A stretch of 64,000 nt of DNA, taken from assembly GCA_902612575.1 (NCBI GenBank), contig CACMDZ010000004.1:1-64000 (forward strand). The letters run 5' to 3'. Of the stretch, positions 16,478-53,882 are shown one piece after another. The translations under genes were made by a program, and so were the position numbers. How positions within the stretch are numbered: the stretch's first letter is position 1; the number at the start of each line of letters is the position of its first letter. The notes under the pieces are model-generated. The model made no database searches. It was not told where the DNA came from and saw nothing but the letters and a program-made list of their open reading frames with translations. Origin of the DNA: an uncultured Pelagibacteraceae bacterium (GTDB lineage Bacteria > Pseudomonadota > Alphaproteobacteria > Pelagibacterales > Pelagibacteraceae).

Positions 16478-17137
16478 TTATTTTGAAGGGTCAGGTACTT
16501 TTCTTAAATATGGTTTAACTGTTTCCCAACCATCTGGATAAATTTTCTTAGCCTCTTCATCTTTAACTGCTGGAAGAATAACTACATCTTCACCTTTTTT
16601 CCAGTTAGCTGGTGTTGCAACTTTATGTTTTGCAGTAAGTTGCATTGAGTCTATGGCTCTTAAAATTTCATGGAAATTTCTTCCTGTTGCCATAGGATAA
16701 GTTAAATAAAGACCAATTCTTTTATCTGGTCTTACAACAAAAATAGTTCTTACAGTCTCATTATCTACTGCAGTACGACCCATTGATGTTGTTCCTGCAT
16801 CGGCTTCCAACATATTAAAAAGTTTTGCAACTTTTAAATCTTCGTCAGCGATTATAGGATAATCTGGCATTGTTCCAGACACATCTTTAATATCATTCAA
16901 CCATTTTTTATGATCCTCTACCCCATCAACACTTAATCCAATAACTTTTACATTTCTTGCATCAAACTCAGCTTTCATTTGTCCTAATGAACCTAATTCT
17001 GTTGTACAAACTGGTGTAAAATCTTTTGGGTGAGAAAATAAAACGCCCCAACTATCTCCAAGCCACTCATGAAAAGAAATATCTCCTTCAGTAGTTTTGC
17101 ATTGAAAATCTGGACACATACTGTTTATTTTAAGCAT
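16478..17137 (-). CDS. Peroxiredoxin, 1-Cys/Prx6 type
   Basis: FSHPKDFTPVCTTELG active site; long C-terminal domain. Confidence 0.93.
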   Translation of the reverse strand: MLKINSMCPDFQCKTTEGDISFHEWLGDSWGVLFSHPKDFTPVCTTELGSLGQMKAEFDARNVKVIGLSVDGVEDHKKWLNDIKDVSGTMPDYPIIADEDLKVAKLFNMLEADAGTTSMGRTAVDNETVRTIFVVRPDKRIGLYLTYPMATGRNFHEILRAIDSMQLTAKHKVATPANWKKGEDVVILPAVKDEEAKKIYPDGWETVKPYLRKVPDPSK

Positions 17138-17215
17138 ATAGTCTCTCCTTAATTATTATTTAGAATAATTATAATCAAGATTGATTTGGTATGCAAATTT
17201 TAATAATCTTAAAAA

Positions 17216-17908
17216 ATGATATTTAATCAACTATTTGATCAAAAATCATCAACCTACACTTATATTATATCGAGTGGTAAAGGGAGAGAAGCATTAATCA
17301 TTGACCCTGTGATTGAACATACTGATGGATATATTAATTATTTAGAAAATTTAGATCTAAAATTGGTTAAAGTAATAGATACACATATTCATGCAGATCA
17401 TGTAACTGGATTAAACGAATTAAACAAAAGAACAAATTGTACTCGTATAATGGGTGAAAATTCTAAATCTGAAGTTATTGATATTAAATTAAAAGATGAA
17501 GAAAATGTGAGTATTGAAAATATTAACCTTAAAGCTATTTACACCCCTGGTCATACTGACTGTTCTTATAGCTATCTAATGAAAGATAGAGTTTTCACAG
17601 GGGATACTCTTTTAATTAATGGAACTGGTAGAACTGACTTTCAAAATGGTAGTGCTCATCAGGCTTATGAGTCATTATTTGGTAAATTGTTAAAACTTCC
17701 TGAAGAAACGCTTGTATACCCTGCCCATGATTATAATGGAAAAAAAAATTCAACAATAGGTAATGAAAAAAATAATAACCCAAGACTTCAGGTTAGCTCA
17801 AAAGAGGAGTATGTTGAAATCATGGATAATCTTAATCTAACAAATCCAAAAATGATGGATGTAGCAGTTCCAGCGAATTTAAAGGGTTTGACGCTCAAAG
17901 AACTTTAA
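17216..17908 (+). CDS. MBL-fold hydrolase, ETHE1-like persulfide dioxygenase family
   Basis: DTHIHADHVTG, TPGHTDCS, VFTGDTLLI, YPAHDYNG. Confidence 0.85.
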   Translation: MIFNQLFDQKSSTYTYIISSGKGREALIIDPVIEHTDGYINYLENLDLKLVKVIDTHIHADHVTGLNELNKRTNCTRIMGENSKSEVIDIKLKDEENVSIENINLKAIYTPGHTDCSYSYLMKDRVFTGDTLLINGTGRTDFQNGSAHQAYESLFGKLLKLPEETLVYPAHDYNGKKNSTIGNEKNNNPRLQVSSKEEYVEIMDNLNLTNPKMMDVAVPANLKGLTLKEL

Positions 17909-17962
17909 AATCAAGCTTTATAAAAGTGTTGTTTTTAGAAAATTAAGAATTATATAAGACAT

Positions 17963-18073
17963 ATGGTATGCAATAATTCACACTGCAAATGTAAAAACTG
18001 TTCTTGTGACAGATGTGTTTGTAAAAACTGTGATTGCAAACCATCATCAGAAAACTGCTGTTGTAATAAGTAG
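17963..18073 (+). CDS. Metallothionein-like Cys-rich peptide, 36 aa
   Basis: Own reading, below ORF-track cutoff: MVCNNSHCKCKNCSCDRCVCKNCDCKPSSENCCCNK*, 12 Cys in 36 residues. Confidence 0.75.
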   Translation: MVCNNSHCKCKNCSCDRCVCKNCDCKPSSENCCCNK

Positions 18074-18101
18074 TTTAATTTAAAATTTATCTTAAACATT
18101 T

Positions 18102-18683
18102 ATGAATGATTTTTTAGAGTCGATAATTAAAAGAGATCCTGCTGCAAGGTCAAAGTTAAGTTTAATACTAACTTATCCTGGTGTTAAAGCTGTATTTTTT
18201 CATAGAATTGCGAACTTTTTTGCCGTAGCAAAATTTCATCTTTTAGCGAGAATAATTTCTCAATTTTCAAGATTTTTAACTGGTATTGAAATTCATCCAA
18301 ACGCAAAAATTGGTAAAAATCTTTTTATTGATCATGGTATGGGAGTAGTTATTGGTGAAACTTCAGATATAGGTGATAATGTAACTATTTATCATATGGC
18401 AACATTAGGTGGAATTGCTCCAAGTATTAATTCAGATAATCAAAGAAATATTAAAAGACACCCAACGCTAAAAGAAAATGTAGTTGTAGGATCTGGCGCA
18501 CAAATACTTGGACCAGTTGTAGTTGGTAAAAATTCAAAAATTGGAGCTAATGCTGTAGTTACAAAAGATGTTCCAGAAAATGCAGTAATGGTTGGAATTC
18601 CTGCAAAAAATGTCGGAACCGCATCTGAAGAATTTAAACCCTATGGTGTTGCACCAGGGGGTGATACAAAGCTTGATGTATGA
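18102..18683 (+). CDS. cysE: Serine O-acetyltransferase
   Basis: Left-handed beta-helix hexapeptides; [34 protein letters not shown]. Confidence 0.94.
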
Positions 18684-19681
18684 AAACTTTACAAAATAAT
18701 TTTATCGAAGCAATAGGAAACACTCCTTTATTTAAATTAAAAGCTGCATCAGAAATTACTGGTTGTAATATTTATGGAAAAGCAGAGTACCTTAATCCAG
18801 GAGGCTCTGTAAAAGATAGAGCAGCTTTAGCTTTGATAAGAGACGCTGAAGAAAAAAAACTAATTTCAAAAGGAGGAATAATTGTTGAGGGGACTGCTGG
18901 CAATACTGGAATTGGTTTATGTCTTTTAGGAAATTCGATTGGTTACAAAACTATAATCGTAATGAATGATAATCAAACACAAGAAAAAAAAGATTTATTA
19001 AGAAGTATAGGTGCTGATTTGAGATTGGTACCACCAAAACCATATAAAGATGAAAATAATTTTGTTAAGTATGCAGGTCGTTTAGCTGAAGAATTAAAAA
19101 GTAGCAATAATCATGGTGTCGTTTGGGCTAACCAATTCGATAATACTGCAAACATGAAAGGGCATTATGAAACTACTGGACCTGAAATATGGGAACAAAC
19201 TGAGGGAAAAGTTGATGGATTTGTTTGTTCTTCTGGAACTGGAGGAACTATTGCTGGAGTTAGTAGTTTTTTAAAAGAAAAGAATAAAAACATTAAAATA
19301 TATTTATCGGATCCAACTGGTTCATCCCTATATAATTACATTGAAAATGGAGAATTAAAGAGTGAAGGTGGCTCGATAACCGAAGGTATTGGATCTAGTA
19401 GAGTTACTGCAAATTTTGCAAAAGCAAATATTGATGGAGCATTTTCAATAAGTGATCATGAGTCTTTACCTGTTTTATTCGATTTAATTGAAAAAGAAGG
19501 TCTTAGTTTAGGTACTAGTTGTGGGGTGAATATAGCTGGAGCTATTAGATTGGGTAAACTTTTAGGTCCTGGTAAAACGATTGTAACAATACTTTGTGAT
19601 AAATCTGATAAATACAACTCAAAGATGTTTAATAAATCTTTTTTAAAAGAAAAAGGCCTTCCCTATCCTCACTGGATATAA
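18680..19681 (+). CDS. cysK: Cysteine synthase
   Basis: [34 protein letters not shown]. Confidence 0.92.
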
Positions 19682-19766
19682 TCACGCATAGCAGTACTGT
19701 AATAAATTCATTACATTTCTATCTTATAATAAATTCTAATATGTCAATTAATTTAAAGGAGAAACT

Positions 19767-20150
19767 ATGGACGTAAAAGAACAAACTAAAAAAGCATATG
19801 AACTTTTTGGTTCTGGAGATATGGAAACATTTTTTAACGATATGATCGATGATGAAATCGTTTGGACTTTTCCAGGTAAAGAAGGTGTACATCCACTTTC
19901 TGGAGTTCACAAAGGAAAACAAGCTATGATGGCTGCAATGTCTAAAATCCCAGCTACTTGGCCAAATTTCCATTTAAAAGTTTTAGATATGATAAGTGAA
20001 GGAAATAAAGTTTTTGCAAGAGTTCATGCAACTGCAGATAACATGGATACTATGTTTGGTCACTATTTTGAAGTAAGTGATGAGGGAAAAACTAAAGTTA
20101 TGATGACTTTTGATGATACACTTAGCATGTTCAATGCAATGAAGAAGTAA
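19767..20150 (+). CDS. NTF2-like/SnoaL-type small protein
   Basis: KKAYELFGSGDMETFFNDMIDDEIVWTFPG; SD AGGAG. Confidence 0.8.
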   Translation: MDVKEQTKKAYELFGSGDMETFFNDMIDDEIVWTFPGKEGVHPLSGVHKGKQAMMAAMSKIPATWPNFHLKVLDMISEGNKVFARVHATADNMDTMFGHYFEVSDEGKTKVMMTFDDTLSMFNAMKK

Positions 20151-20158
20151 GGAACAAT

Positions 20159-20485
20159 ATGTCAATTTTAGAAAAACTAAATAAAGCAATCATGGAAAAA
20201 GATGGTGCAGCAGCTGGTGAGCTGGTGCACGATGACTACAAAATGTTTTCCCATCTTAAAGGAGAATATGTGCATATGGGTAAGGCAGGTATGGTTGAAG
20301 CCGTAAGTAAAGGGATGATGAGTCCCGCAAAATACAGGATCCTTTTTGAAAATGATGAAATTGGTTTTGATCATTCGTATGTTACTTATCAAGATGGAAA
20401 TACAGAAGCTTTGATGTGCTGTTGGAAGTTTAAAGACGGTAAAATCATTGAATTAGAAACTGGAGCAACAAAAATACCAAAATAA
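20159..20485 (+). CDS. NTF2-like/SnoaL-type small protein
   Basis: MSILEKLNKAIMEKD..ELVHDDYKMF..LETGATKIPK; paralogue of 22977-23297. Confidence 0.8.
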   Translation: MSILEKLNKAIMEKDGAAAGELVHDDYKMFSHLKGEYVHMGKAGMVEAVSKGMMSPAKYRILFENDEIGFDHSYVTYQDGNTEALMCCWKFKDGKIIELETGATKIPK

Positions 20486-20509
20486 CTATAAACTTACAAA
20501 GGAGTTAAT

Positions 20510-20575
20510 ATGGCCAGCATTGAGTTTAAAGCTTTTGATAAAGCATATGAATTTGCTGGGGTCTGGGGGGAATAA
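20510..20575 (+). other. Micro-ORF, 21 aa (leader peptide or gene remnant)
   Basis: AAAGGAGTTAATATG, MASIEFKAFDKAYEFAGVWGE*, stop 1 nt before the next ATG. Confidence 0.45.
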
Positions 20576-20576
20576 A

Positions 20577-20846
20577 ATGGTAAAAATGGTTGGTAACTTT
20601 GAGGTAAAAGACTGGGCTCATTGGAAAAAAATGTTTGATGAACATTCTGGCCCAAGAGAAGCAGCAGGTATTAAAACTATTTACGTTGGAAATGAAATAG
20701 AAAATCCAAATAAAGTACATATTGTGATGGAAACACCAGCAGCAGACACTATGCAAAAATTTATGCAGAGCCCAGAGAATGCTAAAGTAATTGCGGAATC
20801 TGGACATAAACAAGAGACAACAGTAATGAGCGTTTGCTCTGATTAA
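20577..20846 (+). CDS. Small dimeric alpha/beta-barrel-like protein (DUF3764/ABM-like)
   Basis: MVKMVGNFEVKDWAHWKKMFDEHSGPREAAGI...; start corrected from 20520. Confidence 0.7.
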   Translation: MVKMVGNFEVKDWAHWKKMFDEHSGPREAAGIKTIYVGNEIENPNKVHIVMETPAADTMQKFMQSPENAKVIAESGHKQETTVMSVCSD

Positions 20847-20872
20847 ATTAACAAAAAAAAAGGAGATATATT

Positions 20873-21166
20873 ATGTTTGTAAAAATAGAACAAAAACTTT
20901 TAAAAGGTTTTAATTCTTGGAAGGAAATGATGCTTGCAAATAGTGAGAAACTTAAAAAGTATGGAATGACAATAGCTTTTGCAGGTGCAGATAAAGAAGA
21001 TGATAATGCTATGACTGTAGTTATTCATTTTGAATCACCCGAGGGCTTAAAAGGTTTTGGTGGAGATGCAGAACTAACTCAAGCAAGAATAGATTCTGGA
21101 GTAATAATGGACCAATCTAAAATGACCATGATGACTGATGAATCTGTAATGAACCACAAAGGATAA
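20873..21166 (+). CDS. Small alpha/beta-barrel-like protein (DUF3764-like)
   Basis: MFVKIEQKLLKGFNSWKEMMLANSEKLKKYGMTIAFAG; SD AAGGAG. Confidence 0.65.
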   Translation: MFVKIEQKLLKGFNSWKEMMLANSEKLKKYGMTIAFAGADKEDDNAMTVVIHFESPEGLKGFGGDAELTQARIDSGVIMDQSKMTMMTDESVMNHKG

Positions 21167-21171
21167 TTCTA

Positions 21172-21657
21172 ATGATGAAAAAAATATATGTAATTATGTT
21201 TTTTTTAATATTTACAACATCAAGTTTTGCAGATGGTCATAAAGGAAAAATTGATCTTAAAGGTTTTATTGTTGGAGATAACAAATTTCTTACTGATAAC
21301 GAGGGTAACTTTTTAACTTTTACTTACGATGGAGTTGGAGGATTAATGGCAGTCGAAGGTACAACATTCATGGATAATGCTTCACAATATTGCATTGGCG
21401 CAGGTACAATCCCAGGAAAGGGATTTGAAATGGGACACTGTAAAATAAATCAAATGGATGGGGATACTATTTTTACATACTACGAAATTCCACTTGGAGA
21501 CTCAATGAATGGTACATTTAAATGCTTAGGGGGAACAGGAAAATATAAAGGTATAGAATGTAGTGGCGCAACAGGTTACACACAAATTAACTCAGCCCAA
21601 GAAAATAAATTTGCCTCATCAATTTATTTTAAAGGTGGATATTCTTTAATGAAATAA
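21172..21657 (+). CDS. Secreted small protein, possibly AOC-barrel-like
   Basis: Signal peptide KKIYVIMFFLIFTTSSFA; GGTGKYKGIECSGATGY. Confidence 0.65.
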   Translation: MMKKIYVIMFFLIFTTSSFADGHKGKIDLKGFIVGDNKFLTDNEGNFLTFTYDGVGGLMAVEGTTFMDNASQYCIGAGTIPGKGFEMGHCKINQMDGDTIFTYYEIPLGDSMNGTFKCLGGTGKYKGIECSGATGYTQINSAQENKFASSIYFKGGYSLMK

Positions 21658-21710
21658 TTGAATAATCATTAGATTAATTTAAAATACGAAATAAAAAAAA
21701 GGAAAAAAAA

Positions 21711-21998
21711 ATGAAATACTATATGGTAACTCACACTTTTAAATCTAAAGAAATGAAAGACAAATTTAACGAGGTTTTAGGCGGCATGTCCAGAGAAGAT
21801 ATGATTAAATCTTCCACTAGCGATAAAGCTAAATGCCAAATGACATATTACACTCCAGGTGATACTATGACAATGTTTTGTCATTGGATGGCAGAAAGTA
21901 CTGATGCTATTAATGAACAGCTTTCTCAGATGAATGATTTTTTTGAACCTCACCAATTTACTGAGGTTAAAGAAGAAGTTTTCGATTTTAACAAATAG
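21711..21998 (+). CDS. Small hypothetical alpha/beta protein
   Basis: MKYYMVTHTFKSKEMKDKFNEVLGG... Confidence 0.65.
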   Translation: MKYYMVTHTFKSKEMKDKFNEVLGGMSREDMIKSSTSDKAKCQMTYYTPGDTMTMFCHWMAESTDAINEQLSQMNDFFEPHQFTEVKEEVFDFNK

Positions 21999-22007
21999 GA
22001 GGAAAAA

Positions 22008-22298
22008 ATGGAAAAAGAAGTTTTAGTGATCGTAGATTTGAAAGAAGGAAAACTTGAAAAATTTATGGGATGGATGCAATCAGATGAGGGTATGAGTGTA
22101 AGAAAATCAGCAGCTCATCCAGAAAAAACTATAGGAGCAGTAAAGCCAGATAAAAGTGGTGTAATGTTTAAAGTATTTGTTCATAATATGGAAAAAATGA
22201 AAGAACTAGTATCTGGCACACATCCAGTTGCTAAGCCAATTTACGATGAGTGTGTTGAGAAAATGACTGCTTGGGATTTGACTAAAGTTGAAATGTAA
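22008..22298 (+). CDS. Small hypothetical alpha/beta-barrel-like protein
   Basis: MEKEVLVIVDLKEGKLEKFMGWM...; SD TAGGAGG. Confidence 0.65.
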   Translation: MEKEVLVIVDLKEGKLEKFMGWMQSDEGMSVRKSAAHPEKTIGAVKPDKSGVMFKVFVHNMEKMKELVSGTHPVAKPIYDECVEKMTAWDLTKVEM

Positions 22299-22299
22299 T

Positions 22300-22623
22300 A
22301 TGGCAAAATATTATGTAATTGGAAAAGTAAGTAAGGAGCTTTTACATCGAATGCAGAAAGATCCATCAGCTGACAGATTTGCTTCAACAAAAAAAGTTGT
22401 TGAAGCTGTAGGAGGTAAAATGATTAGTTATGAGTGGGTTCGTGGTAGATTTGATGTAATGTGTTGCGTTGAAGGAGACGCTGAAACTGTTGTTGGAATG
22501 AAAGTAGCTTTTTTAAATTCAGGACTTATGGATGAATTAATGATCCATGAGGTAATTGATTATAATAAAGCATTTGGAAAAGCTGCTGATGCAGCTAAAT
22601 CAGTAGTCAAACCCGCAGAATAA
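22300..22623 (+). CDS. GYD-domain-like protein
   Basis: MAKYYVIGKVS...KVVEAVGGKMISYEWVRGRFDVMCCVEGDAETV; start corrected from 22288. Confidence 0.65.
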   Translation: MAKYYVIGKVSKELLHRMQKDPSADRFASTKKVVEAVGGKMISYEWVRGRFDVMCCVEGDAETVVGMKVAFLNSGLMDELMIHEVIDYNKAFGKAADAAKSVVKPAE

Positions 22624-22654
22624 ATTATAATTAATTTATTGAAAGGAGAAGATA

Positions 22655-22942
22655 ATGAGCGCATATCTATTGGCGAATATAACAGTAAATAACCCTGAGA
22701 ATTACAAAGAGTACGTTGAGAAAGTAAAATCCATTGTTGAAAAATTTGATGGAGAGTATTTGGTTAGAGGGGGAGAAATGTCTGTTATAGAAGGTGATTG
22801 GCCTCACAAAAGAAATATTGTTATTAAATTTCCATCTCATGAAAAAGCAATGGAGTGGTACAATTCTGAAGAATATAAACCAATTAGACAAATAAGACAC
22901 GACAATGCTGTGTCAAATTCTATAATTGTTGATGGAGTTTAA
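22655..22942 (+). CDS. DUF1330 family protein
   Basis: NPENYKEYVEKV...FDGEYLVRGG..VIEGDWPHKRNIVIKFPSHEKAMEWYNSEEYKPIRQIR. Confidence 0.9.
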   Translation: MSAYLLANITVNNPENYKEYVEKVKSIVEKFDGEYLVRGGEMSVIEGDWPHKRNIVIKFPSHEKAMEWYNSEEYKPIRQIRHDNAVSNSIIVDGV

Positions 22943-22976
22943 ATATAATAATTTTACAAAAACTAAGGAGATTAAA

Positions 22977-23297
22977 ATGTCAATATTAGAAAAATATAGC
23001 GCGGCTATAAAAGATAAAGATGAAGCAGCAATGAATGAGCTTTTGCATGATGATTTTAAATTTACTATGCATAAATCAGGTAATACTTTAAGCAAATCTG
23101 ATGTGATCAAATGGGCCATGAGTGGAGATATTAAACAGAGAGACACTAGAATTATTTACGAAAATGATGAGGTTGGAGTACATCATGCCTTTGTAACATT
23201 TGACGATGGTAATGTTGAAGCAGTAATGGCAGTTTACAAATATGATAATGGAAAAATCATGAGTTTAGAGACTGGCGCAACTCCTATGCCAAAATAA
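22977..23297 (+). CDS. NTF2-like/SnoaL-type small protein
   Basis: MSILEKYSAAIKDKDEAAMNELLHDDFKF..LETGATPMPK; start corrected from 22926. Confidence 0.8.
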   Translation: MSILEKYSAAIKDKDEAAMNELLHDDFKFTMHKSGNTLSKSDVIKWAMSGDIKQRDTRIIYENDEVGVHHAFVTFDDGNVEAVMAVYKYDNGKIMSLETGATPMPK

Positions 23298-23794
23298 TGA
23301 AAAAGCTTATACTTTTATTTGTTTTAATAGCCTTTAATTCAAATGCAGCGTCAATGAAGATGATTGGATCTAAGGGTGATCCGAATGAAGTAACCAGAGT
23401 AATAGAAGTAAAGATGTATGACAATTATTATGAACCAAGCTCAATTAAAGTGAAAAAAGGTGAAACTGTAAAAATAATTGTAAAAAATTTGGGTGAACTT
23501 GTTCATGAATATAATATTGCTACAAAAGAGATGCATATAAAACATCAGCCTGAAATGGCAAGATTAATAGAACATGATATTTTATTAGGAGATAGTATCG
23601 ATCATGCTAAGATGAAAGAAATGTCTAAAAAAGATCACTCGCTTGGGCATAAACATGCTAATAGCGTGATGTTAGAACCTAGTAAAACTGGAGAGATAAT
23701 TTGGAAATTTTCCAAAGATATAGCTTTAGAAATGGCATGCAATATTCCTGGTCATTACGAAAGTGGAATGGTTGGGCCAATAATTATTGAGTAA
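23297..23794 (+). CDS. Exported cupredoxin
   Basis: Signal peptide; YEPSSIKVKKGETVKIIVKNLGELVHEYNI ... ACNIPGHYESGM (type-1 Cu ligands). Confidence 0.88.
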   Translation: MKKLILLFVLIAFNSNAASMKMIGSKGDPNEVTRVIEVKMYDNYYEPSSIKVKKGETVKIIVKNLGELVHEYNIATKEMHIKHQPEMARLIEHDILLGDSIDHAKMKEMSKKDHSLGHKHANSVMLEPSKTGEIIWKFSKDIALEMACNIPGHYESGMVGPIIIE

Positions 23795-23843
23795 CATCAA
23801 AATTTTGTAGATATTAATTTTAGATAATATTATTCTTTTTTAA

Positions 23844-24179
23844 ATGAGTAATATAACTTCTTACATAATATTAATTATTGCAGTTGCTTTAGGGACTGCT
23901 GCAAATGGATTTGCTAAAGCTGCGAATGGTTTTACAATTTTTTTACCAAGTATTTTTACTGCGATAGCTATAATTGCTTGTATGTACACATTGTCCTTAG
24001 TTATGAAAACTATACCTGTTGGAATAACTTATGCTTCATTTGCTGGATTATGTATAATTGCAACTTCTATAGTTGGAATTTACAAATTTAATCAAATTCC
24101 AGACTTATTTACAATCATTGGTCTAATACTAATCATTTCAGGAGTATTGATTGTAAATTTAGTTGGAAAATCAAGTTAA
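23844..24179 (+). CDS. Small multidrug resistance (SMR)-like membrane protein
   Basis: 111 aa, four TM segments, EmrE-like organisation. Confidence 0.75.
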   Translation: MSNITSYIILIIAVALGTAANGFAKAANGFTIFLPSIFTAIAIIACMYTLSLVMKTIPVGITYASFAGLCIIATSIVGIYKFNQIPDLFTIIGLILIISGVLIVNLVGKSS

Positions 24180-24180
24180 C

Positions 24181-24528
24181 TTATTTAATTTCACTTGGTA
24201 TTTTATGATTGCCATCTTCTTTTAGATCCAAAGAATATTCTTTAACTACACAATCTATATCAAAATCTGAGTATAGATGAGGAAACATGTCTCCAGAAGA
24301 TGATTGTTCCCAAACTAATTTCTGAAGTTTAAGTGCGTCTACTTTTAAAAGTACTAAATTAGGTTGATTTAAATAAAATTTATTAAGTGTCTGTTTTACT
24401 TGATTTATATCAGAAAAATGGATGAAACCGTCCTTTAAATCAAGGGATGTGCCTTTAAAAATTTTATTTTCTTTTGCATCATTCCATTCAGATTTTGTAC
24501 AAATTTTGTAAACAAAATCAAAATTCAT
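24181..24528 (-). CDS. DUF952 family protein
   Basis: YKICTKSEWNDAKENKIFKGTSLDLKDGFIHFSD. Confidence 0.88.
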   Translation of the reverse strand: MNFDFVYKICTKSEWNDAKENKIFKGTSLDLKDGFIHFSDINQVKQTLNKFYLNQPNLVLLKVDALKLQKLVWEQSSSGDMFPHLYSDFDIDCVVKEYSLDLKEDGNHKIPSEIK

Positions 24529-24529
24529 T

Positions 24530-24922
24530 TTATTTTAGAAAATCATCGACTTCTACTTGGTATCCCTCAACTAGTCGATTTGTTTCATTTGCCATTCCAA
24601 CTATTGCAATCATTTCATTTATCATCTCATCAGTGGCACCCTTTTTTTTTGCGGCCAATGTGTGAGATTTAATACAATACTCACAAGCATTTGTTATTGA
24701 TACAGCAACATAAATTAATTCTTTAATCTCTGGCGCTAGAGCTCCTTTTTTCATTACTTGTTGTAGTGATCTCCAAGTCCTTTCTAGCGTTTCTGGACTG
24801 TTAGCCATAGTTTTCCAGAAATTTGGAATTTCAGTAATTTGTCTTGCTTCTTTTATTTCATCAAAAATTTCTTTTACTTTTCCAGATGCTTCTTTATCTG
24901 AAATTTTGTTAAACACTGTCAT
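24530..24922 (-). CDS. AhpD-like/carboxymuconolactone decarboxylase family protein
   Basis: ACEYCIKSHTLAAKKKGAT CxxC motif. Confidence 0.88.
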   Translation of the reverse strand: MTVFNKISDKEASGKVKEIFDEIKEARQITEIPNFWKTMANSPETLERTWRSLQQVMKKGALAPEIKELIYVAVSITNACEYCIKSHTLAAKKKGATDEMINEMIAIVGMANETNRLVEGYQVEVDDFLK

Positions 24923-24934
24923 AATTTTCTCCTT

Positions 24935-26617
24935 TTAGTTATAAATTGACTCAATTTTTGGCATTAATTTTAATAGTTCCTTTGTATAATTATGTTTAGG
25001 ATTTTTAAACAATTCCTCTGTTTCAGAAACCTCACATAATTTTCCATCTTTAAGTACAGCTATTTTATCACACATTTGTCTAACTACAGGTAAATCGTGG
25101 CTGATAAACAAAATAGTTAAATTTAATTGTTCTTGTAAATCTTTTAATAAGTTTAAGATTTGAGCCTGAATACTAACATCAAGGGCTGAGGTTGGTTCAT
25201 CACAAACAAGAAGTCTAGGCTGTGTGGCTAATGCTCTTGCAATTGATATTCTTTGTCTTTGACCACCAGAAAACTCATGAGGGTATCTTATTGCAGATTG
25301 TTGACTTAATTCTACAGACTCTAATAAATCGTAAATATAATTATCTAAATCCATAGATTTTATATTTGGGTTATGAAGTTTAATTGGTTCTGCAATAATT
25401 TCTTTTACTTTGAGTCTACCATTTAAAGAGGAAAATGGGTCTTGAAAGATCATCTGAATTTGTCTTCTAAATTTTAACAAATCTTTATTTTTTTTGATCT
25501 TAGTAACATTTACATTATCAAAAAATATATCCCCAGAACTTGGTTTAAATAAATTCACAACCATTTTTGCTATAGTTGTTTTACCACTACCACTCTCACC
25601 AACTAGACCAAATGATTTACCTTCCTTAATATCAAAAGAAACATCATCTACTGCCATTACTGAATTTTTTGTATTTTCAGTGAAAAAACTATCATCGAAA
25701 GATTTACTCAAATTTTGGATTTTAACTAAGTTTTGATCTACAATACTTTTTTTAGACCATCTGTTTAATATTTTGATATTATTATTTTGATTATTTAAAT
25801 TCTCTTTTTCAATAATTGTAAACCTTGATATTTTTTTATTTGTTGGTGGTACTGAGCTAACTAGACTTTTTGTATATTTTTCTTTTGGTTCTACTAAAAC
25901 TTGCTTTGTTGGGCCAATCTCCACCAGGTCTCCATTTTTCATTACAGCTACTCTATCTGTAGTTTCTGCAATTACACCCATATCATGTGTTATGAGTATG
26001 ACAGCTAAATTTCTCTCCCTAGTTAACTTTTTTATTAATTCAAGAATTTGGGATTGTATTGAAACATCCAGTGCTGTAGTAGGTTCATCTGCAATTAATA
26101 ATTCTGGCTCACAACACAAAGCTAGAGAAATAACAACTCTTTGTCTCATACCTCCAGAAAATTGATGAGGATAATTGCTAAATCTTTTTTTTGCTTCTTT
26201 TATACCTACCTCTGTCAATAGATTGATTGCTTTGTTTTTTGCTGCATCTGTACTTATATTTAAATGAGTTTGTATTGTTTCAATGAGTTGTTCTCCTACA
26301 GTAAGAATTGGATTTAAAGAAGTTTGTGGATCTTGAAATATCAATCCTATTTTTTTTCCTCTGTATTGAACTATAGTTTCTGGATTTTCACTGATATTTG
26401 TTTCACCCATAAATATTGACCCGCTTGAAATTTTACCTGGCTCATCAATCAAGTTTACTATAGCGTTAGCTACGGTACTTTTTCCCGAACCAGACTCGCC
26501 AACTATTCCAACTATTTCACCTTTATTAATATCTATATTTATGTTTTTGGCAGCATTTACTGTTTCTTTCCTCATTTTATAGTCAATGCTTAAGTTATTT
26601 ATTTTTAGAAACGTCAT
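24935..26617 (-). CDS. Dipeptide/oligopeptide ABC transporter, fused double ATPase (DppD-DppF type)
   Basis: Two Walker A (GESGSGKST, GESGSGKTT) and two signature motifs. Confidence 0.94.
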   Translation of the reverse strand: MTFLKINNLSIDYKMRKETVNAAKNINIDINKGEIVGIVGESGSGKSTVANAIVNLIDEPGKISSGSIFMGETNISENPETIVQYRGKKIGLIFQDPQTSLNPILTVGEQLIETIQTHLNISTDAAKNKAINLLTEVGIKEAKKRFSNYPHQFSGGMRQRVVISLALCCEPELLIADEPTTALDVSIQSQILELIKKLTRERNLAVILITHDMGVIAETTDRVAVMKNGDLVEIGPTKQVLVEPKEKYTKSLVSSVPPTNKKISRFTIIEKENLNNQNNNIKILNRWSKKSIVDQNLVKIQNLSKSFDDSFFTENTKNSVMAVDDVSFDIKEGKSFGLVGESGSGKTTIAKMVVNLFKPSSGDIFFDNVNVTKIKKNKDLLKFRRQIQMIFQDPFSSLNGRLKVKEIIAEPIKLHNPNIKSMDLDNYIYDLLESVELSQQSAIRYPHEFSGGQRQRISIARALATQPRLLVCDEPTSALDVSIQAQILNLLKDLQEQLNLTILFISHDLPVVRQMCDKIAVLKDGKLCEVSETEELFKNPKHNYTKELLKLMPKIESIYN

Positions 26618-33632: not shown

Positions 33633-36319
33633 TATCCTGTATTTTTAATCGCTGCAGAAATTCCTGCAATAGATGTCATCATCGCATCATCAAGTAACTT
33701 TTTGCTTTTTTTATCTAATTTCTTTTGTTTTTGCTTTTTCATCACGGTTACTTGTAAAACATTGAGTATTTCTGAGTAGATATTTCTAATAATTGCAGGT
33801 CCCCGGAAAGCTTTTCTTTGTTTAAGTATTTCTCTAGGAGTAATATCATGATTTAATTTTTTTACTGCATTAAACTGATATCTTAGTTTATCACCTACTC
33901 TAACTAATTTTTGGTCTGCTAAATTTTTTTCATAAATTTTTGAAATTTCAGGATCAACTTTTGATAAGACCATGTCTAATAAATCCATTGTAGAATTAAA
34001 ATACGGCCAATTTTTTTCCATATCTGTTAAAGTTTTTTTAAATTTTTTAATTGATGAGTACCTTAAAGCTTCAGCGGTTCCTAACCAGGCAGGCAACATC
34101 AGTCTTATTTGTGTCCAAGCGAAAACCCATGGTATGGCTCTTAAACTATTAATGTTATCTACATTCTTTCTTTTGGATGGTCTTGATCCTATCGATAACT
34201 TACCAAGAGCCATATGTGGCGTAACGGTTTTAAAATATCTGATGAAGTCAGAGGTTTGATTAATATTTTTTCTATAAGAACTAGTTGAGACATTTGACAT
34301 GTTTTGAATAAGATTTCTCCATTCTTTTTTTGGATTTGGAGGTGGATTTAGAGTTGCTTCCATGACAGAGCCAATATAACTACACAGGTTATACTTTGCT
34401 AATGGCTCATATCCGTATTTTTGTTGTATTACTTCACCTTGGTCTGTAATTCTTATTTTTCCGTTAACAGAATAAGGTGGCTGCGATCTTAAAGTTGCTT
34501 GAATAGGTCCTCCTCCTCTACCAGCAGAACCACCTCTACCATGAAAAAATGTAACGTTAATTTTATATTTTTTTGCTAATTTAATAATTTCTTCTTGTAA
34601 TTTATATTGATGCCAACTAGCTGATAATTTACCTGCATCTTTACTAGAGTCTGAATACCCAATCATAATTTCTTGCTTATTTAGTATGTATTTTCTGTAC
34701 CATTTTAATGAGAATAATTTTTCCATTATTTTTTTACCATTTTTCAAATCATCTAAAGTCTCAAATAAAGGAACTACTCTTAACTTGCTTTTGATATTAG
34801 CCTCTTTTTGCAAATGCATTACAGATAAAATATCTGAGGCAGATGAAGTCATTGATATAACGTACGCTCCTAAACACTCTTTTGGTTGACTAGACAAAGC
34901 TTTAAAAGTTGACCAAACTTCTTTATTTTCCTTATTTTTAAAAATAAATTTATTAATTGAATTTTTACCTCTAATTTTATCTGATAAATACTTTATTTTT
35001 TCTGTCTCACTCCAAGAATTATAATTTCGCCTAGATTTTCTTTTTATAAATTCATTCAGTAATTGTGAATGTCTAGATGACTCTTGTCTTATATCCAGTC
35101 TTGCAAGATTGATTCCAAAACATTTTGCTCTTCTCATTAAATCAAGTAAATCACCACTAGCTATATTTTCGTTCTGATTTTGCTCTAAAGACTCTCTTAC
35201 AACTCTTAAGGGTTTTAAAATTTCTTCTCTTTCAGAAAGTAATATTTTTTCATTTAATGGTTTGCCATAATTAAGATGTTGTTCTATTTCTCTATGGGTT
35301 GTTCTTAGTTTATCTCTTAATGGTCTTAAATAAACTCTATATGGCTCAAAGGTTTTTCCTGTAGCTTTTAATATTTTATTTGAGCATTTTTCCATAGAGT
35401 AAGATCTAATTAATTTAGTTAAAGACTTTTCATAAAGTTTAGCAGCTTCCCATCTTGATAAAAGAATAACTCTTTTGGTAACCTCGGAAGTTACAAAAGG
35501 ATTCCCATCTCTGTCGCCTCCCATCCAAGACCCAAATTCAATTGGATTAAAATTTTTTGGAAGTCCTTTGCCCATATTTTTTTCAAAAATTTGATTTAAT
35601 CTTCTGTAAACTTTAGGTATTGTATCCCATAAACTATCCTCAATAATTGCTAATCCCCATCTAGCCTCTTCTGGAGGAGTAGGTCTAGATCTTTTAATTT
35701 CATCTGTATTCCAAATGATTGTAATTTCATCGTATAGTTTTTTATCTAAAATTTTTAATTTTGATGGATAATTATTTAGAAGAATTCTTTGCTCAAGAAT
35801 TTCTGTTAATGTATGATATTTTTGAATCAAAGTTCTTCTTTTAACTTCAGTAGGATGAGCTGTTAAAACTATTCCAATATTTAAACTTTTTGCAATATTA
35901 TAAATTTTATTATTTGAAATTTTTTTATTTTTAAAAAAATTTTCAAAAATTTCTTCTATAAATATATTTTGGAATTTTTTATTTGATTTTATATTTTCAT
36001 ATTGATCTAAAGTTCTAGATGCATCTATTGACTCTGCTAAATTATAAAAATTCATGAAATGATTAAATGCTCTTGTTAATTTAAATAAAGACTGTGGGCT
36101 AAGTTTATTAACTTCTCTTAGAATTTTCTTAAATGGTTCTTTCCTACTTTTATTTGCAACATTTGCCTTTGACAAAAGTCTAATTTTTTCAACTAAGTTA
36201 AAAAAGTTAGAGCCCTCCTGTTTTTTTATTACTTTACCAAGAATATTGCCCAAATGTCTAACGTCATCCCTAAGTGATTTGGTTGGAATTCTTTCGTAAT
36301 AAAGATCTCGTTTTAACAT
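33632..36319 (-). CDS. ppc: Phosphoenolpyruvate carboxylase
   Basis: LTAHPTEVKRRT; GYSDSSKDAGKLSASW; FHGRGGSAGRGGGP. Confidence 0.96.
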   Translation of the reverse strand: MLKRDLYYERIPTKSLRDDVRHLGNILGKVIKKQEGSNFFNLVEKIRLLSKANVANKSRKEPFKKILREVNKLSPQSLFKLTRAFNHFMNFYNLAESIDASRTLDQYENIKSNKKFQNIFIEEIFENFFKNKKISNNKIYNIAKSLNIGIVLTAHPTEVKRRTLIQKYHTLTEILEQRILLNNYPSKLKILDKKLYDEITIIWNTDEIKRSRPTPPEEARWGLAIIEDSLWDTIPKVYRRLNQIFEKNMGKGLPKNFNPIEFGSWMGGDRDGNPFVTSEVTKRVILLSRWEAAKLYEKSLTKLIRSYSMEKCSNKILKATGKTFEPYRVYLRPLRDKLRTTHREIEQHLNYGKPLNEKILLSEREEILKPLRVVRESLEQNQNENIASGDLLDLMRRAKCFGINLARLDIRQESSRHSQLLNEFIKRKSRRNYNSWSETEKIKYLSDKIRGKNSINKFIFKNKENKEVWSTFKALSSQPKECLGAYVISMTSSASDILSVMHLQKEANIKSKLRVVPLFETLDDLKNGKKIMEKLFSLKWYRKYILNKQEIMIGYSDSSKDAGKLSASWHQYKLQEEIIKLAKKYKINVTFFHGRGGSAGRGGGPIQATLRSQPPYSVNGKIRITDQGEVIQQKYGYEPLAKYNLCSYIGSVMEATLNPPPNPKKEWRNLIQNMSNVSTSSYRKNINQTSDFIRYFKTVTPHMALGKLSIGSRPSKRKNVDNINSLRAIPWVFAWTQIRLMLPAWLGTAEALRYSSIKKFKKTLTDMEKNWPYFNSTMDLLDMVLSKVDPEISKIYEKNLADQKLVRVGDKLRYQFNAVKKLNHDITPREILKQRKAFRGPAIIRNIYSEILNVLQVTVMKKQKQKKLDKKSKKLLDDAMMTSIAGISAAIKNTG

Positions 36320-37205
36320 GATTAAAATTAAATTTTTTTTGATTTATACCTTTCGTATTTGTTTCTATTTTAAATAAACTTCCTGAGAATTTAAATTTTT
36401 TAATTTCACTTTTTTTCATACCTTTTAAGGCTGAAGTTACAAATAATTCTGAGTTATTTTTACCACCAAATGCACAGTTTGTTATATTTTTTGCGGGTAA
36501 TTTTACTTTATGTAGTATTTTTCCAGATTTACTAAAAATTGAAATACATGCTCCGTGAAAATGACAAACCCAAAGATTTTTATTTTTGTCTAAAGTCATT
36601 CCATCAGGTACACCTTGATTCTTTGTAAATTTTTTAAATACAATTTTTTTGGTAATATTTAAATTTTTATTTATTTTAATTTTATAAATAGTTTTTTTCC
36701 TACTATCTGTATGATAAAAATTATTGCTATCTATAAATGCTGGACCGTTTGTTATGTAATAAGTGGTATCAACTTTTTTTAAATTTAATTTTTTATCAAG
36801 GCAATATAATGATCCATTTGTCAAATTTCTTTCAGGATTATCCATAGTACCAAACCATAATCTACCTGATGGGTCTGTCTTACCATCATTAATACGATTT
36901 GTTTTAATGTCTTTTTCTATATAAATTGACTTTAAAATTTTTTTCGTTTTTAAGTTTAAAATTCTTAACTCACCCTGAAGACCTAATATAAAAATGTTAT
37001 TTTTAATATGTGCTAGAAAACCTATCTCTTTATTAATTTTAATTATTTTTCTTTTATTATTTTTTATATTTAAGATATTTATTCTTTTTTTTTTTATATC
37101 AGTAAAATAAATCGATTTATGTTCTTTTACCCATAATGTTCCCTCACCTAATATACATTTAGCGTTCCACAAAACTTCAGGTTTTGAGGTTTTTATTTTA
37201 ACCAT
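36270..37205 (-). CDS. SMP-30/gluconolactonase family lactonase
   Basis: LGEGTLWVKEHKSIYFTDI; NDGKTDPSGRLWFGTMD; start placed at internal Met (MVKIKTS). Confidence 0.85.
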   Translation of the reverse strand: MVKIKTSKPEVLWNAKCILGEGTLWVKEHKSIYFTDIKKKRINILNIKNNKRKIIKINKEIGFLAHIKNNIFILGLQGELRILNLKTKKILKSIYIEKDIKTNRINDGKTDPSGRLWFGTMDNPERNLTNGSLYCLDKKLNLKKVDTTYYITNGPAFIDSNNFYHTDSRKKTIYKIKINKNLNITKKIVFKKFTKNQGVPDGMTLDKNKNLWVCHFHGACISIFSKSGKILHKVKLPAKNITNCAFGGKNNSELFVTSALKGMKKSEIKKFKFSGSLFKIETNTKGINQKKFNFNHVKTRSLLRKNSNQIT

Positions 37206-38370
37206 TGTATTCGTATTTTTTAATGAAATCTTTATTTGGATTAATTCCAATCCCTATATTTTCTAATGGAGATGCGAACCCATTTTTATTTTTAACTTGA
37301 TCTAAAATTGAAAATTTTTCCTCTGCTAAATCAGTTATGAAAATATTTTTTTCTGTTGTATCAAACTCTAACATAGACTTTGTTGGAAATAGTCCACCTG
37401 GCATATCGGGTAATGTTGTTAGCAAATGAAGATTAACCGCCACACTTAAAGCTGAACCCCATACATGATTTACTATTGGAATAAAATTAGACTGTGCTAA
37501 CGCTGATACTTTTAAATATTCAGTAATTCCACCTAAACCACAAACCTCAGGTTGAGCTATATCAATACAATTATTTTTTATAAGTTGGTTCCAACCATAT
37601 TTTGTAAACTCAGCCTCACCTCCAGCAATATTAGTTTTTAATTTTTCTTTAAGTTCTTTGTAGCTATCATAATCTTCTGGAGCAACAGGTTCTTCAAACC
37701 AGTAAATATTCATTTCATCTAATCCTCTTCCAACATATAATGCATCATTTTTATTATAAGCATGATTTGCATCCACCATGAGTTTAAATTCAGATCCAAT
37801 TGTATCTCTTACAGCGCTAACCAACTTTAAATCTTCTTTAGGACCCATGCCAATTTTCATTTTCATAGCTTTAAAATTCTTTTCTTTTATTTGATTAGCC
37901 TCATTTTTGAACAATTCACAAAGTTCATCGACTGTTTTTTTTTGCAACATCATGCCGTACCCATAAACTGGAATTTTATCATTAGTTTTACCTCCTAGTA
38001 GTTGATAAAGAGGTAAATTAGATTTTTTTGCCAATATATCCCACAATGCTATGTCAATTCCTGACAATGCTTGAATTGGCATTCCCTTTTGACCACTGTC
38101 TCTGAGTAAATTGTATACTTTGTGCCAAATATATTCTTTTTTAAGTGGATCATCTCCTTTTATTAAAGGTTGAATAACTTTTTCTACAATATATTTATTT
38201 GCAAGAGCTATATTTCCAGGCCCAAAACACTCTCCCCAGCCTGTGATTCCTTCATCAGTCTCTACTTCAACTAAGTGGGCCGTTCTATGTTTGTAATATT
38301 GTTGTGAGTATCCTAGTTCTTTGTCTAACTCATATCTAAGTACATGACTTTTGATTGAGGTTATTTTCAC
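37198..38370 (-). CDS. Mandelate racemase/muconate lactonizing enzyme family (sugar-acid dehydratase)
   Basis: KMKIG, VDANHAY, GGEAEF, NHVWGS. Confidence 0.92.
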   Translation of the reverse strand: MKITSIKSHVLRYELDKELGYSQQYYKHRTAHLVEVETDEGITGWGECFGPGNIALANKYIVEKVIQPLIKGDDPLKKEYIWHKVYNLLRDSGQKGMPIQALSGIDIALWDILAKKSNLPLYQLLGGKTNDKIPVYGYGMMLQKKTVDELCELFKNEANQIKEKNFKAMKMKIGMGPKEDLKLVSAVRDTIGSEFKLMVDANHAYNKNDALYVGRGLDEMNIYWFEEPVAPEDYDSYKELKEKLKTNIAGGEAEFTKYGWNQLIKNNCIDIAQPEVCGLGGITEYLKVSALAQSNFIPIVNHVWGSALSVAVNLHLLTTLPDMPGGLFPTKSMLEFDTTEKNIFITDLAEEKFSILDQVKNKNGFASPLENIGIGINPNKDFIKKYEYNG

Positions 38371-38375
38371 AAATT

Positions 38376-39218
38376 TTAAACAGCAACTACTTTAGAGTTC
38401 TGTTCTCCTAAGTTCTCTATTGATAGTTTCATTTGGTCACCTGCTTTCAGAAATACTTGTGGTTTTCTACCCATTCCAACTCCTGGAGGTGTTCCAGTTG
38501 TGATTATATCCCCTGGTTGTAATGACATAAATTTACTTACATAAGATACAATGATATCAACGTTAAAGATCATAGTACTTGTATTTCCCGTTTGCATTCT
38601 CTCACCATTTACATCCAACATCATTTTTAAATTATTTATGTCCTTAATTTCATCCTTAGTTACTAGGTAAGGTCCAGTGGGCCCATACGTATCGTGAGAT
38701 TTGCCTTTAACCCATTGTCCCATTTTCTCAATTTGCCATTCTCTTTCACTAACATCGTTTACTAAACAATATCCTAAAATATGATCTTGTGATTGGTCTT
38801 CTGAAATATGTTTAGCCTCTTTTCCTATTACAATTCCAAGTTCAACTTCCCAATCTAGTTTTTTTGATCCTGAAACTATTTCCACATCATCATTAGGACC
38901 ACACATAGAACTAGTAGCCTTCATAAACATAATTGGTTCTTTTGGAATATCAGCGCCAACTTCAGCAGCATGGTCTGAATAATTAAGCCCTATTGCAACA
39001 AACTTTCCCGGGCTTGTAATGCAAGAACCTATTCTTTGATCTGATGAAATTTCTGGAAGGCTTGATGTATCAACAGTTTGAATGTTTGAAATTGTTTCAA
39101 AATTTAAATTATGTGGGTTTAAATCACTTACATGTGAGCTAATATCTCTTATTTTTCCATCACCATCTAGTATTGCTGGTTTTTCTTTTCCCTTTTCACC
39201 TACTCTTAATAGTTTCAT
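38376..39218 (-). CDS. Fumarylacetoacetate hydrolase family protein
   Basis: IGLNYSDHAAE; DWEVELGIVIGK; GDIITTGTPPGVGMGRKP. Confidence 0.93.
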   Translation of the reverse strand: MKLLRVGEKGKEKPAILDGDGKIRDISSHVSDLNPHNLNFETISNIQTVDTSSLPEISSDQRIGSCITSPGKFVAIGLNYSDHAAEVGADIPKEPIMFMKATSSMCGPNDDVEIVSGSKKLDWEVELGIVIGKEAKHISEDQSQDHILGYCLVNDVSEREWQIEKMGQWVKGKSHDTYGPTGPYLVTKDEIKDINNLKMMLDVNGERMQTGNTSTMIFNVDIIVSYVSKFMSLQPGDIITTGTPPGVGMGRKPQVFLKAGDQMKLSIENLGEQNSKVVAV

Positions 39219-39234
39219 TATTTCTCCTTTATAT

Positions 39235-39975
39235 TTAAATTGTCATTCCACCATCAACAGAAAAAGTATTTCCTGTTGTAAATGTTGATTCATCACTAGC
39301 TAAATAAATAGCAAAATCAGCTATTTCTTGTGCAGTTCCTAGTCTTTCCATGGGTTGTCTTGCTATGAAATCTTTTTTTGCCTTAACTGGGTCCGGGCTT
39401 TGTTTTACTCTATCTTCCCAAGAAGGAGTGAATACGGTTCCAGGTGCAATTGCATTACATCTAATTTTTTGCTTAACAAAATCAGATGCGATTGATTTTG
39501 TTAGTCCAATAATAGCTGCTTTACTTGCTCCATATACAAATCTGTTTGGTAGACCCTTAATACTAGATGCAACAGAGGCAACGTTAATAATACTGCCTCC
39601 ATTATTATTAATCATTGTTGGTAATGTAGCTTTACACATAAAGTACATAGATTTAATATTAGTATCGAAAGAAAAATCCCAATCTTTCTCCTCACAATCT
39701 AAAATTGTTCCATGATGAACAAATCCTACTGCATTAAATAATACATCTATATTTCTAAATGTATTTATGAATTCTTTGATATCTTCATTTTTTGTTGAGT
39801 CTAATTTTTTTACTTTAATTTTTGGGTATTCTTTATTTAGTTCACTTAAAGTATTTTCATTAATGTCTGTAGCAGTGACATTGGCACCTTCATTATGAAA
39901 AGTTACAGCTGTTGCTTTTCCTATCCCTTGTCCAGCTGCAGTGATGATTACTTCTTTTCCCTCAAGTCTTCCCAT
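39235..39975 (-). CDS. SDR family oxidoreductase (sugar-acid dehydrogenase-like)
   Basis: GQGIGKATA; YGASKAAIIGLTKS; VDGGMTI. Confidence 0.9.
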   Translation of the reverse strand: MGRLEGKEVIITAAGQGIGKATAVTFHNEGANVTATDINENTLSELNKEYPKIKVKKLDSTKNEDIKEFINTFRNIDVLFNAVGFVHHGTILDCEEKDWDFSFDTNIKSMYFMCKATLPTMINNNGGSIINVASVASSIKGLPNRFVYGASKAAIIGLTKSIASDFVKQKIRCNAIAPGTVFTPSWEDRVKQSPDPVKAKKDFIARQPMERLGTAQEIADFAIYLASDESTFTTGNTFSVDGGMTI

Positions 39976-40837
39976 TATTTATCCTTTCAATTTCTTTATA
40001 TAGTGAACTATGATCTGTTTCACCATGTCCATTCTCAACTAGTGATTTATACATTTCTTTAACTAAATTTGAAATAGGTAATTGAGTATTATAATTATTT
40101 GCACATTCTAAGATATTATTCATATCTTTTAGCTGACTTGAAGTTTTACCTTTAGGACTAAAATCTTTATCTATCATTCTTTTTCCATGTGTTCTAAGAA
40201 CTTTACTATCAGCCCAACCTCCAGATAAAGCCTTAATCATTTTATTTGGGTCAGCTCCTGCCTTTTCACAGAGAGTAACTGCTTCAGCAACAGCACCAAT
40301 AGCTAATCCAACAATAATTTGGTTTGCTAATTTTGAGACCTGGCCACATCCTATTGGGCCAACAAGAGTTGGGTTTCCCATTGATTTTAAAATATCTTTA
40401 ACTGATTCAAAGACTATCTGTTCTCCCCCAATCATTATAGCAAGAGATGCTTCTTCGGCTCCTATTGTTCCACCTGAAACTGGTGCATCTAAGTAATTAA
40501 TTTTTCGAGATTTTAAATTTTTTCCGTGATTAACTGCTGTAGTTTGTTTTACAGAGCTCATATCAATTACAGTTGAATTAGGTTTTAAATTATTTAAAAA
40601 TTCATCGCTACCTATAACTTTATTGACCGCATCATCATTAGTTAACATTGTAATTACCACATGACTTTCTTTAACAAGTTCTCCTATTGAATTTGAAATT
40701 TCGGCACCAAAGTGTTTTAGTGGCTCAGCTTTATTTTTAGATCTATTAAATGCTCTAACTTTGTATCCAGCTTTTAGAATGTTTTTTGCCATTGGAAAGC
40801 CCATAAGGCCAGTACCAATAAAACCTATATTTTGCAT
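39962..40837 (-). CDS. NAD(P)-dependent 2-hydroxy-3-oxopropionate reductase/3-hydroxyisobutyrate dehydrogenase family
   Basis: IGFIGTGLMGFPMAKNI; DAPVSGGTIGAEEASLAIMIGG. Confidence 0.92.
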   Translation of the reverse strand: MQNIGFIGTGLMGFPMAKNILKAGYKVRAFNRSKNKAEPLKHFGAEISNSIGELVKESHVVITMLTNDDAVNKVIGSDEFLNNLKPNSTVIDMSSVKQTTAVNHGKNLKSRKINYLDAPVSGGTIGAEEASLAIMIGGEQIVFESVKDILKSMGNPTLVGPIGCGQVSKLANQIIVGLAIGAVAEAVTLCEKAGADPNKMIKALSGGWADSKVLRTHGKRMIDKDFSPKGKTSSQLKDMNNILECANNYNTQLPISNLVKEMYKSLVENGHGETDHSSLYKEIERINNGKT

Positions 40838-42159: not shown

Positions 42160-42160
42160 T

Positions 42161-42745
42161 TTATTTTAAATCTTTGGCAGGTTGATACTGTTTTTCTTTA
42201 GGATTTTTCCAATCAATAATTAAATTATTTATTGATTGTAGAGCTATAAGAAATATACAAATAAGCGTCAGTGGCTTCATGGTTGCAGGAATGGGTGGAT
42301 CCCAATAAGTTGCAAATCTCTCCCAATTTATAAATGATCTATATGCATCTTCCATTCCTCCATAAATTACGGCAGCTGCAAAAGTGACAATAATTACAGT
42401 ACTAATTAGATCAAAAATACGCTGAGTTGGCCTGCTTACATAGTCATATAATAGGACAATTCTGATATGACTTCTAAGTCTTGTAGCATATATTCCGCCA
42501 ACTAAATAACAAACACCAGCTAACCATAAACATAATTCATTAGCCCATAATGTTGGTTTAAATAGAACATACCTCATAAAAATTTCATACATCATGACAA
42601 TAACAATTATGGGGATTAAATATTTTATAGTGTGGCTTAAAAATAAACTAATTCTATCAATCCAATTTATTGGAAAATCGTCTTTACTTGCAACCTTCTC
42701 ATTTTGCTCTTGTAATTGCTTATCTTGTAATTCTTTATCACTCAT
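42161..42745 (-). CDS. dctQ: TRAP transporter small permease
   Basis: Four-TM DctQ-like; ATG at 42745. Confidence 0.88.
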   Translation of the reverse strand: MSDKELQDKQLQEQNEKVASKDDFPINWIDRISLFLSHTIKYLIPIIVIVMMYEIFMRYVLFKPTLWANELCLWLAGVCYLVGGIYATRLRSHIRIVLLYDYVSRPTQRIFDLISTVIIVTFAAAVIYGGMEDAYRSFINWERFATYWDPPIPATMKPLTLICIFLIALQSINNLIIDWKNPKEKQYQPAKDLK

Positions 42746-42764
42746 TGGCAAAAAAAATTTTATA

Positions 42765-42789
42765 AGAAGGGCCTATTTCAGGCCCTTCT
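42765..42789 (-). terminator. Hairpin/intrinsic terminator-like element 3' of dctP
   Basis: AGAAGGGCCT / AGGCCCTTCT, 5-nt loop, then TATAAAATTTTTTTT on the minus strand. Confidence 0.8.
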
Positions 42790-42811
42790 ATATTTTGTTA
42801 AGTGCTTTTTG

Positions 42812-52081: not shown

Positions 52082-52083
52082 CT

Positions 52084-53851: not shown

Positions 53852-53882
53852 TATAAATATTTTTAATTTTGATTAAAAAAAA

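Follow-up and report, generated by a model that had tools for sequence, protein, structure and literature searches.

The question raised by the locus described here is whether eleven small, closely spaced genes constitute one machine with fixed parts or a collection from which parts can come and go. The genes (a1 to a11) lie at positions 19767 to 23794 of contig CACMDZ010000004.1 (assembly GCA_902612575.1) from an uncultured Pelagibacteraceae bacterium, within the stretch of 64,000 nucleotides that was analysed and is called the window; the genome, a Pelagibacter (SAR11), is 0.99 Mb and 73% complete. SAR11 are the ocean's most abundant bacteria, and their genomes are among the most reduced of free-living organisms. 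An initial annotation of the window had pointed out the eleven same-strand genes, all of which are indeed present as plus-strand open reading frames (ORFs), and had suggested that they form a multi-protein assembly, a small-molecule pathway or a stress response. Comparison with relatives contradicts a single assembly or pathway of eleven parts; the region is probably a modular, hypervariable Pelagibacter operon, that is, a reshuffled toolkit and not a fixed machine.

Gene content between cysK and the SMR gene

Loci of relatives were gathered from whole-genome matches to a7, a10 and CysE and from 80 public contigs; after identical intervals were removed, 126 distinct Pelagibacter loci remained, mostly from single-cell genomes, and the named public loci matching a10 are Pelagibacteraceae single cells. 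ORFs were called mechanically and families were defined as BLAST clusters at E < 1e-8; draft assemblies can hide genes. Between cysK and the gene of a small multidrug transporter (SMR), these loci carry 72 gene orders, drawn from a pool of about 25 recurrent, mostly small families that lie nearly all on the same strand (ABM, NTF2/SnoaL, cupin, DUF1330, GYD, DUF3764, a barrel like allene oxide cyclase (AOC), glyoxalase and DsbA-like families). Beyond the families of the window, the pool holds cupins, a glyoxalase, a DsbA-like protein, another ABM protein and small membrane or secreted proteins; larger unrelated genes, judged by eye to be dehydratase-, lactate-dehydrogenase- and glutathione-reductase-like, occasionally occur in the interval. 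No integrase or transposase was recognised among the recurrent families of the intervals, rare singleton ORFs being left unannotated.

The flanks (cysE-cysK on the left; SMR, DUF952 and CMD genes on the right) are largely syntenic, the left anchor in nearly all relatives with an assembled flank, whereas the interval between them is not. Among strain pairs with cysK at least 85% identical, the same gene content was found at 4-12% in the interval versus 49-60% in the flanks, a noisy comparison in which edge and spurious ORFs depress flank similarity, so that the contrast is understated. Chimeric metagenome assembly does not explain the variation, because most loci come from single-cell genomes; short arrays of differing content are also present in two single-contig genomes (G012 and G122). 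Across the 126 loci, the family of a10 is present in 116, a7 in 107, a9 in 102 and the family of the cupredoxin gene a11 in 59. In 109 of the 126 an SMR gene of the same orientation lies no more than 60 bp from the array, and two SMR genes instead of one stand at the right array end in 44; these paired genes resemble heterodimeric SMR pairs. Arrays without a7 and a10 also occur at the same site (L096, L100, L105, L097 and L104), and one type of them includes a glutathione-reductase-like gene (F27). The parts of the locus in the window are as follows.

18102 to 19681, plus strand: cysE-cysK-like genes (Hexapep and PALP domains), left anchor of the locus, outside the array
19682 to 19730, plus strand: promoter/operator-like conserved element directly after cysK, with a palindrome at 19698 to 19715
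19767 to 20150, plus strand: a1, SnoaL/NTF2-like (Pfam SnoaL_2, E 2e-11), variable allele, near-core in the window's clade
20159 to 20485, plus strand: a2, NTF2-like paralogue of a10 (DUF4440, E 7e-5, below cut-off), optional
20510 to 20575, plus strand: remnant of an optional cupin gene (F11), an in-frame ORF of 21 codons, from alignment with intact alleles
20577 to 20846, plus strand: a3, DUF3764 protein (Pfam E 3e-10), optional
20873 to 21166, plus strand: a4, DUF3764-like (Pfam E 7e-4, below cut-off), optional, recently spread
21172 to 21657, plus strand: a5, predicted secreted AOC/dirigent-like barrel (AlphaFold2 and Foldseek), optional, recently spread
21711 to 21998, plus strand: a6, SCO4226-like (Pfam E 6e-4, below cut-off), optional, its position often held by family F15 instead
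22008 to 22298, plus strand: a7, core member of predicted ABM fold, without Pfam family (AlphaFold2 and Foldseek)
22300 to 22623, plus strand: a8, GYD-like (Pfam E 4e-6, below cut-off)
22655 to 22942, plus strand: a9, DUF1330 (Pfam E 4e-33)
22977 to 23297, plus strand: a10, core member, NTF2-like, DUF4440/SnoaL-like (DUF4440, E 8e-7)
23297 to 23794, plus strand: a11, exported cupredoxin with a C-x4-H-x4-M copper-ligand motif (Pfam Cupredoxin_1, E 9e-9), clade-specific member
23844 to 24179, plus strand: SMR small multidrug transporter (Pfam Multi_Drug_Res, E 9e-14), probable downstream member

The family assignments of the initial annotation largely hold; those of a2, a4, a6 and a8 fall below the Pfam cut-offs, and a5 and a7 have no usable family. 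The secreted barrel-like protein that it named corresponds to a5, in which a signal-peptide-like N-terminus precedes a predicted allene-oxide-cyclase/dirigent-like barrel (AlphaFold2 pLDDT 85) whose Foldseek matches are dirigent proteins, the cyclase PloI4, pyocyanin demethylase and AOC (best E 6e-5); its exported cupredoxin is a11. For a7, Pfam gave no usable match and a PDB sequence search no match, and the predicted fold is that of ABM proteins, a dimeric alpha/beta-barrel (AlphaFold2 pLDDT 96; Foldseek matches to proteins of this fold at E about 5e-4). No solved structure close to a3, a6, a7, a10 or the cupin was found in the PDB. The paralogues a2 and a10 are 47% identical. The best PDB relative of a1 is 1TUH 'EGC068' (E 1e-4), presumably encoded by a gene cassette of an environmental integron; the overlap with what such cassettes contain is curious.

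Strong Shine-Dalgarno (SD) sequences had been described as unusual for the window, and the comparison bears this out: a match of at least 5 nt precedes 8 of the 11 array genes versus 10 of the 50 remaining genes of the window (Mann-Whitney test of match length, P = 0.005). Decay of all members, considered in the same annotation, was not what was seen; the median ratio of nonsynonymous to synonymous divergence (dN/dS, Nei-Gojobori) of array genes is 0.04-0.16, with a higher value of 0.33 for a5, and all array members are under purifying selection, a5 the weakest. Only the cupin remnant is decayed. This remnant, the element after cysK and the SMR gene, which starts 49 bp downstream of the array in the window, were absent from the initial annotation.

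Allele ages and gene loss in the window's clade

The window's clade was taken as the 54 loci ending in the cupredoxin gene. Its order is constant (a1, a2, cupin, a3, a4, a5, a6 or F15, a7, a8, a9, a10, a11); its loci nevertheless have 20 different contents, with a2 present in 49, a3 in 45, a5 in 34, a4 in 20 and a6 in 13. Each optional gene underwent 5-17 presence/absence changes on the cysE-cysK tree, which is not equated with the clonal tree, the history of cysK being possibly recombinant itself. For pairs sharing the gene, median synonymous divergence (dS, Nei-Gojobori) was 0.055 for a4, 0.049 for a5, 0.020 for a6 and 0.081 for F15, versus 0.23-0.27 for cysK; a4 at 0.055 stands against a cysK value of 0.266 in the identical strain pairs. 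The optional genes have therefore spread recently, their dS being much lower than the cysK value for the same strain pairs. By comparison, a1 and a9 exist in old allele classes (dS 0.8), and for most genes the correlation between gene dS and cysK dS is low. Such decoupled divergence is the signature of reassortment by recombination. Identity between the window's a8 and that of strains with flanks 90-100% identical to those of the window is only about 71%, against 83% for a more distant strain (L049); the window's a8 is probably an imported allele.

One loss has left a scar. An intact cupin gene (F11) is present in 21 loci of the clade, and in the window a deletion of about 287 bp has fused the start and end of the gene in frame, leaving 21 codons. 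The deletion joins two copies of AAGCA, a microhomology of 5 bp. Nearly all cupin-less alleles that keep a3 carry the same scar, some of them further mutated, and that of L154 is slightly different. The 3' end of the remnant carries the SD of a3, and the remnant may persist because it holds that site.

The upstream element and the a7-a10 pair

Directly 3' of cysK lies a conserved element with the consensus CGCATAnCaGnnnTGTAAtAAAnncaTTAcATTT, inside which many loci, the window among them, have a TGTAAY-N6-RTTACA palindrome. The element precedes the array in about 97 of the 126 loci, with any of six families in first position (F4, F8, F1, F10, F18 and F0). Two loci (L077 and L105) have extra genes between cysK and the array; there the element stays adjacent to the array, and because it keeps with the array and not with cysK, a role as cysK terminator is disfavoured. 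A scan of 17000 to 25000 against Rfam, with E up to 1, gave no riboswitch or other known RNA. The exact palindrome has 0-3 copies per genome and occurs once in the window's genome, at the array site; a wider palindrome regulon was considered and rejected, as the other sites look like chance and point to no regulator. We read the element as the probable promoter/operator of the array.

The core of the array is a7, of ABM-like fold, together with the NTF2-like a10; a7 precedes a10 in all 107 loci that have both. The neighbourhood check proposed in the initial annotation thus yields a divided result, in that the core pair is conserved, even in another order, and the full set of eleven is not. When 399 Pseudomonadota genomes were drawn evenly, the window's genome was the only one with a7; a different alphaproteobacterial order, whose genomes are small, has the gene in 46 of 120 genomes. 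One family of this order has a10 downstream of a7, frequently with the cupin and F14 intervening, and does so in no fewer than two unrelated genomic contexts; in another of its families a7 stands without a10. The two orders are not separated in the a7 tree, whose well-supported branches force at least two label changes; transfer of a7 between the orders, which this tree appears to require, therefore probably happened at least once. In one locus of the other order (L210), a7 has F9 and an SMR gene beside it; the same combination occurs around the Pelagibacter array, which suggests that SMR belongs with the array.

Proposed operon, rival readings and known systems

Under the reading of a modular operon, the fixed promoter-like element after cysK would probably drive a row of promoterless genes for small single-domain proteins, independently translated and for the most part each provided with an SD, presumably as a single transcript in which a7 and a10 form the core and the remaining members are optional. 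Optional genes would be lost through microhomology-mediated deletion, and both presence/absence and sequence alleles would be reassorted between strains, one or few genes at a time, the likely vehicle being homologous recombination through shared neighbouring genes. Relative order would be conserved within a clade, with new members occasionally imported. Several points weigh against this account. Some loci have an imperfect palindrome, and no recognisable copy of the element is present in 18 loci where an antisense gene comes directly after cysK; for these two reasons the role of the element is uncertain. Gene gain at new positions was deduced from between-clade comparisons and not caught in the act, and the 80 public loci are those nearest to a10, so that the window's clade is over-represented. 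The array folds are moreover promiscuous and name no substrate.

A fixed multi-protein system or biosynthetic pathway, with eleven proteins in one assembly, would agree with genes that are co-directional, tightly spaced, intact, provided with strong SDs and constant in relative order within the clade; it is very unlikely, however, given that optional members are absent from many close relatives with near-identical flanks and that so many orders exist among the 126 loci. An obligate complex of eleven parts is ruled out, because it could not tolerate such content variation. The opposite extreme is an ordinary gene-gain hotspot, that is, a neutral build-up of small horizontally acquired genes in an insertion-tolerant operon without functional unity. 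Rapid turnover and recent spread of the optional genes, the larger unrelated genes sometimes present in the interval and the free recombination of SAR11 (PMC12374537) all speak for it, but membership of the pool is strongly limited to small single-domain folds that bind ligands, purifying selection acts on the genes, the regulatory element keeps with the array and another order has the a7-a10 core at a different locus; on balance, this reading is rather unlikely.

An integron-like cassette array moved by site-specific recombination is scarcely credible. No integron integrase (IntI, TIGR02249) was found above cut-off in five Pelagibacter genomes, which include the window's (73% complete) and two single-contig ones (99-100% complete), and the intergenic spacers (n = 871) have a median of 8 nt, 96% of them being below 57 nt, the minimum length of an attC site; on these two grounds an integron mechanism was excluded. 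Constant order within the clade and a deletion scar produced by microhomology also stand against it, whereas one fixed promoter-like element ahead of apparently promoterless single genes, and the presumed cassette origin of 1TUH, the best solved relative of a1, would suit it. Hypervariability at a fixed chromosomal site is likewise what a phage- or defence-related locus would display, but PADLOC gave no defence match of weight, 2.9 million viral contigs held no relative of a3 or a9 and one weak match of 33 residues to a10, and a10 had no match in phages, leaving this origin with next to no probability.

As to function, the array may tentatively be seen as a kit, different from strain to strain, of small enzymes that bind ligands or need little in the way of cofactors. 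They would rearrange reactive small organic molecules or detoxify them, with a7 and a10 providing the core step and the SMR exporter disposing of the products. The ABM, SnoaL, cupin, glyoxalase, AOC-like and DsbA-like folds point this way, being those of cofactor-light cyclases, isomerases and ligand binders, as do the neighbours of the array in the window (a 1-Cys peroxiredoxin, an MBL-fold hydrolase, a CMD protein and the SMR exporter); an oxidative-stress or small-molecule role fits both. Despite their reduced genomes, SAR11 devote several kilobases to an operon whose composition differs in almost every lineage. If its genes share one promoter and one substrate class, the locus would amount to a combinatorial library assembled by nature, and would be likely to give rise to ecological differences between strains that go unseen in studies of the core genome; a7 and a10 with the cupin offer a concrete core for biochemistry, and the locus a compact system for the study of gene gain and loss in a recombining population. 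Elsewhere in the window, at 36270 to 46700 and 50987 to 55177, there are large clusters for sugar-acid and ABC/TRAP transport that also hold dehydratases and dehydrogenases; they may be a further flexible island.

The block that the initial annotation had called possibly undescribed is real and unusual, its members being functional genes of one operon-like unit, and no description of it was found in the open literature searched on SAR11 hypervariable regions, flexible islands and the array families, subscription papers lying outside that scope. The published tables of the SAR11 hypervariable regions HVR1-4 list lipopolysaccharide (LPS), secretion, transport, pilin, bhmT/osmC and other genes, with several unknowns in HVR3 (PMC2217521). 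These regions resemble the locus in their variable content at fixed chromosomal sites of the same organisms, and no attC sites are reported for them; however, the published gene lists, with which the locus was compared, do not contain this cysK-flanked set of small-protein families (PMC2217521). In replacement flexible genomic islands, variation at one site is attributed to homologous recombination between strains, which is also the likely vehicle here, but there complete clusters, mainly for surface structures, are exchanged and not individual genes (PMC4033161). Here single genes for small cytosolic or secreted proteins come and go within one operon, individually present or absent in a constant order, and whole-cluster exchange was not seen. 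Additive flexible genomic islands likewise consist of gene cassettes present or absent among strains and are flanked by integrases or transposases (PMC4033161), of which no recurrent family was seen in the array intervals.

Integrons share with the locus a fixed promoter-like element ahead of apparently promoterless genes for small single-domain proteins, and differ in that the array has no integron integrase and no room for attC and keeps a constant order within a clade. One conceivable reading, which we advance with reserve, is that of a cassette operon that works without a recombinase; on this dedicated platform in its chromosome, a streamlined bacterium would reassort single-domain ligand-binding proteins gene by gene, behind one regulated promoter and around a transferable a7-a10 core; if this holds, the population would gain a combinatorial small-molecule capability, integron-like without integrase or attC. 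Taken together, these comparisons place the locus as an apparently undescribed flexible genomic region with unusually fine-grained, operon-internal variation.

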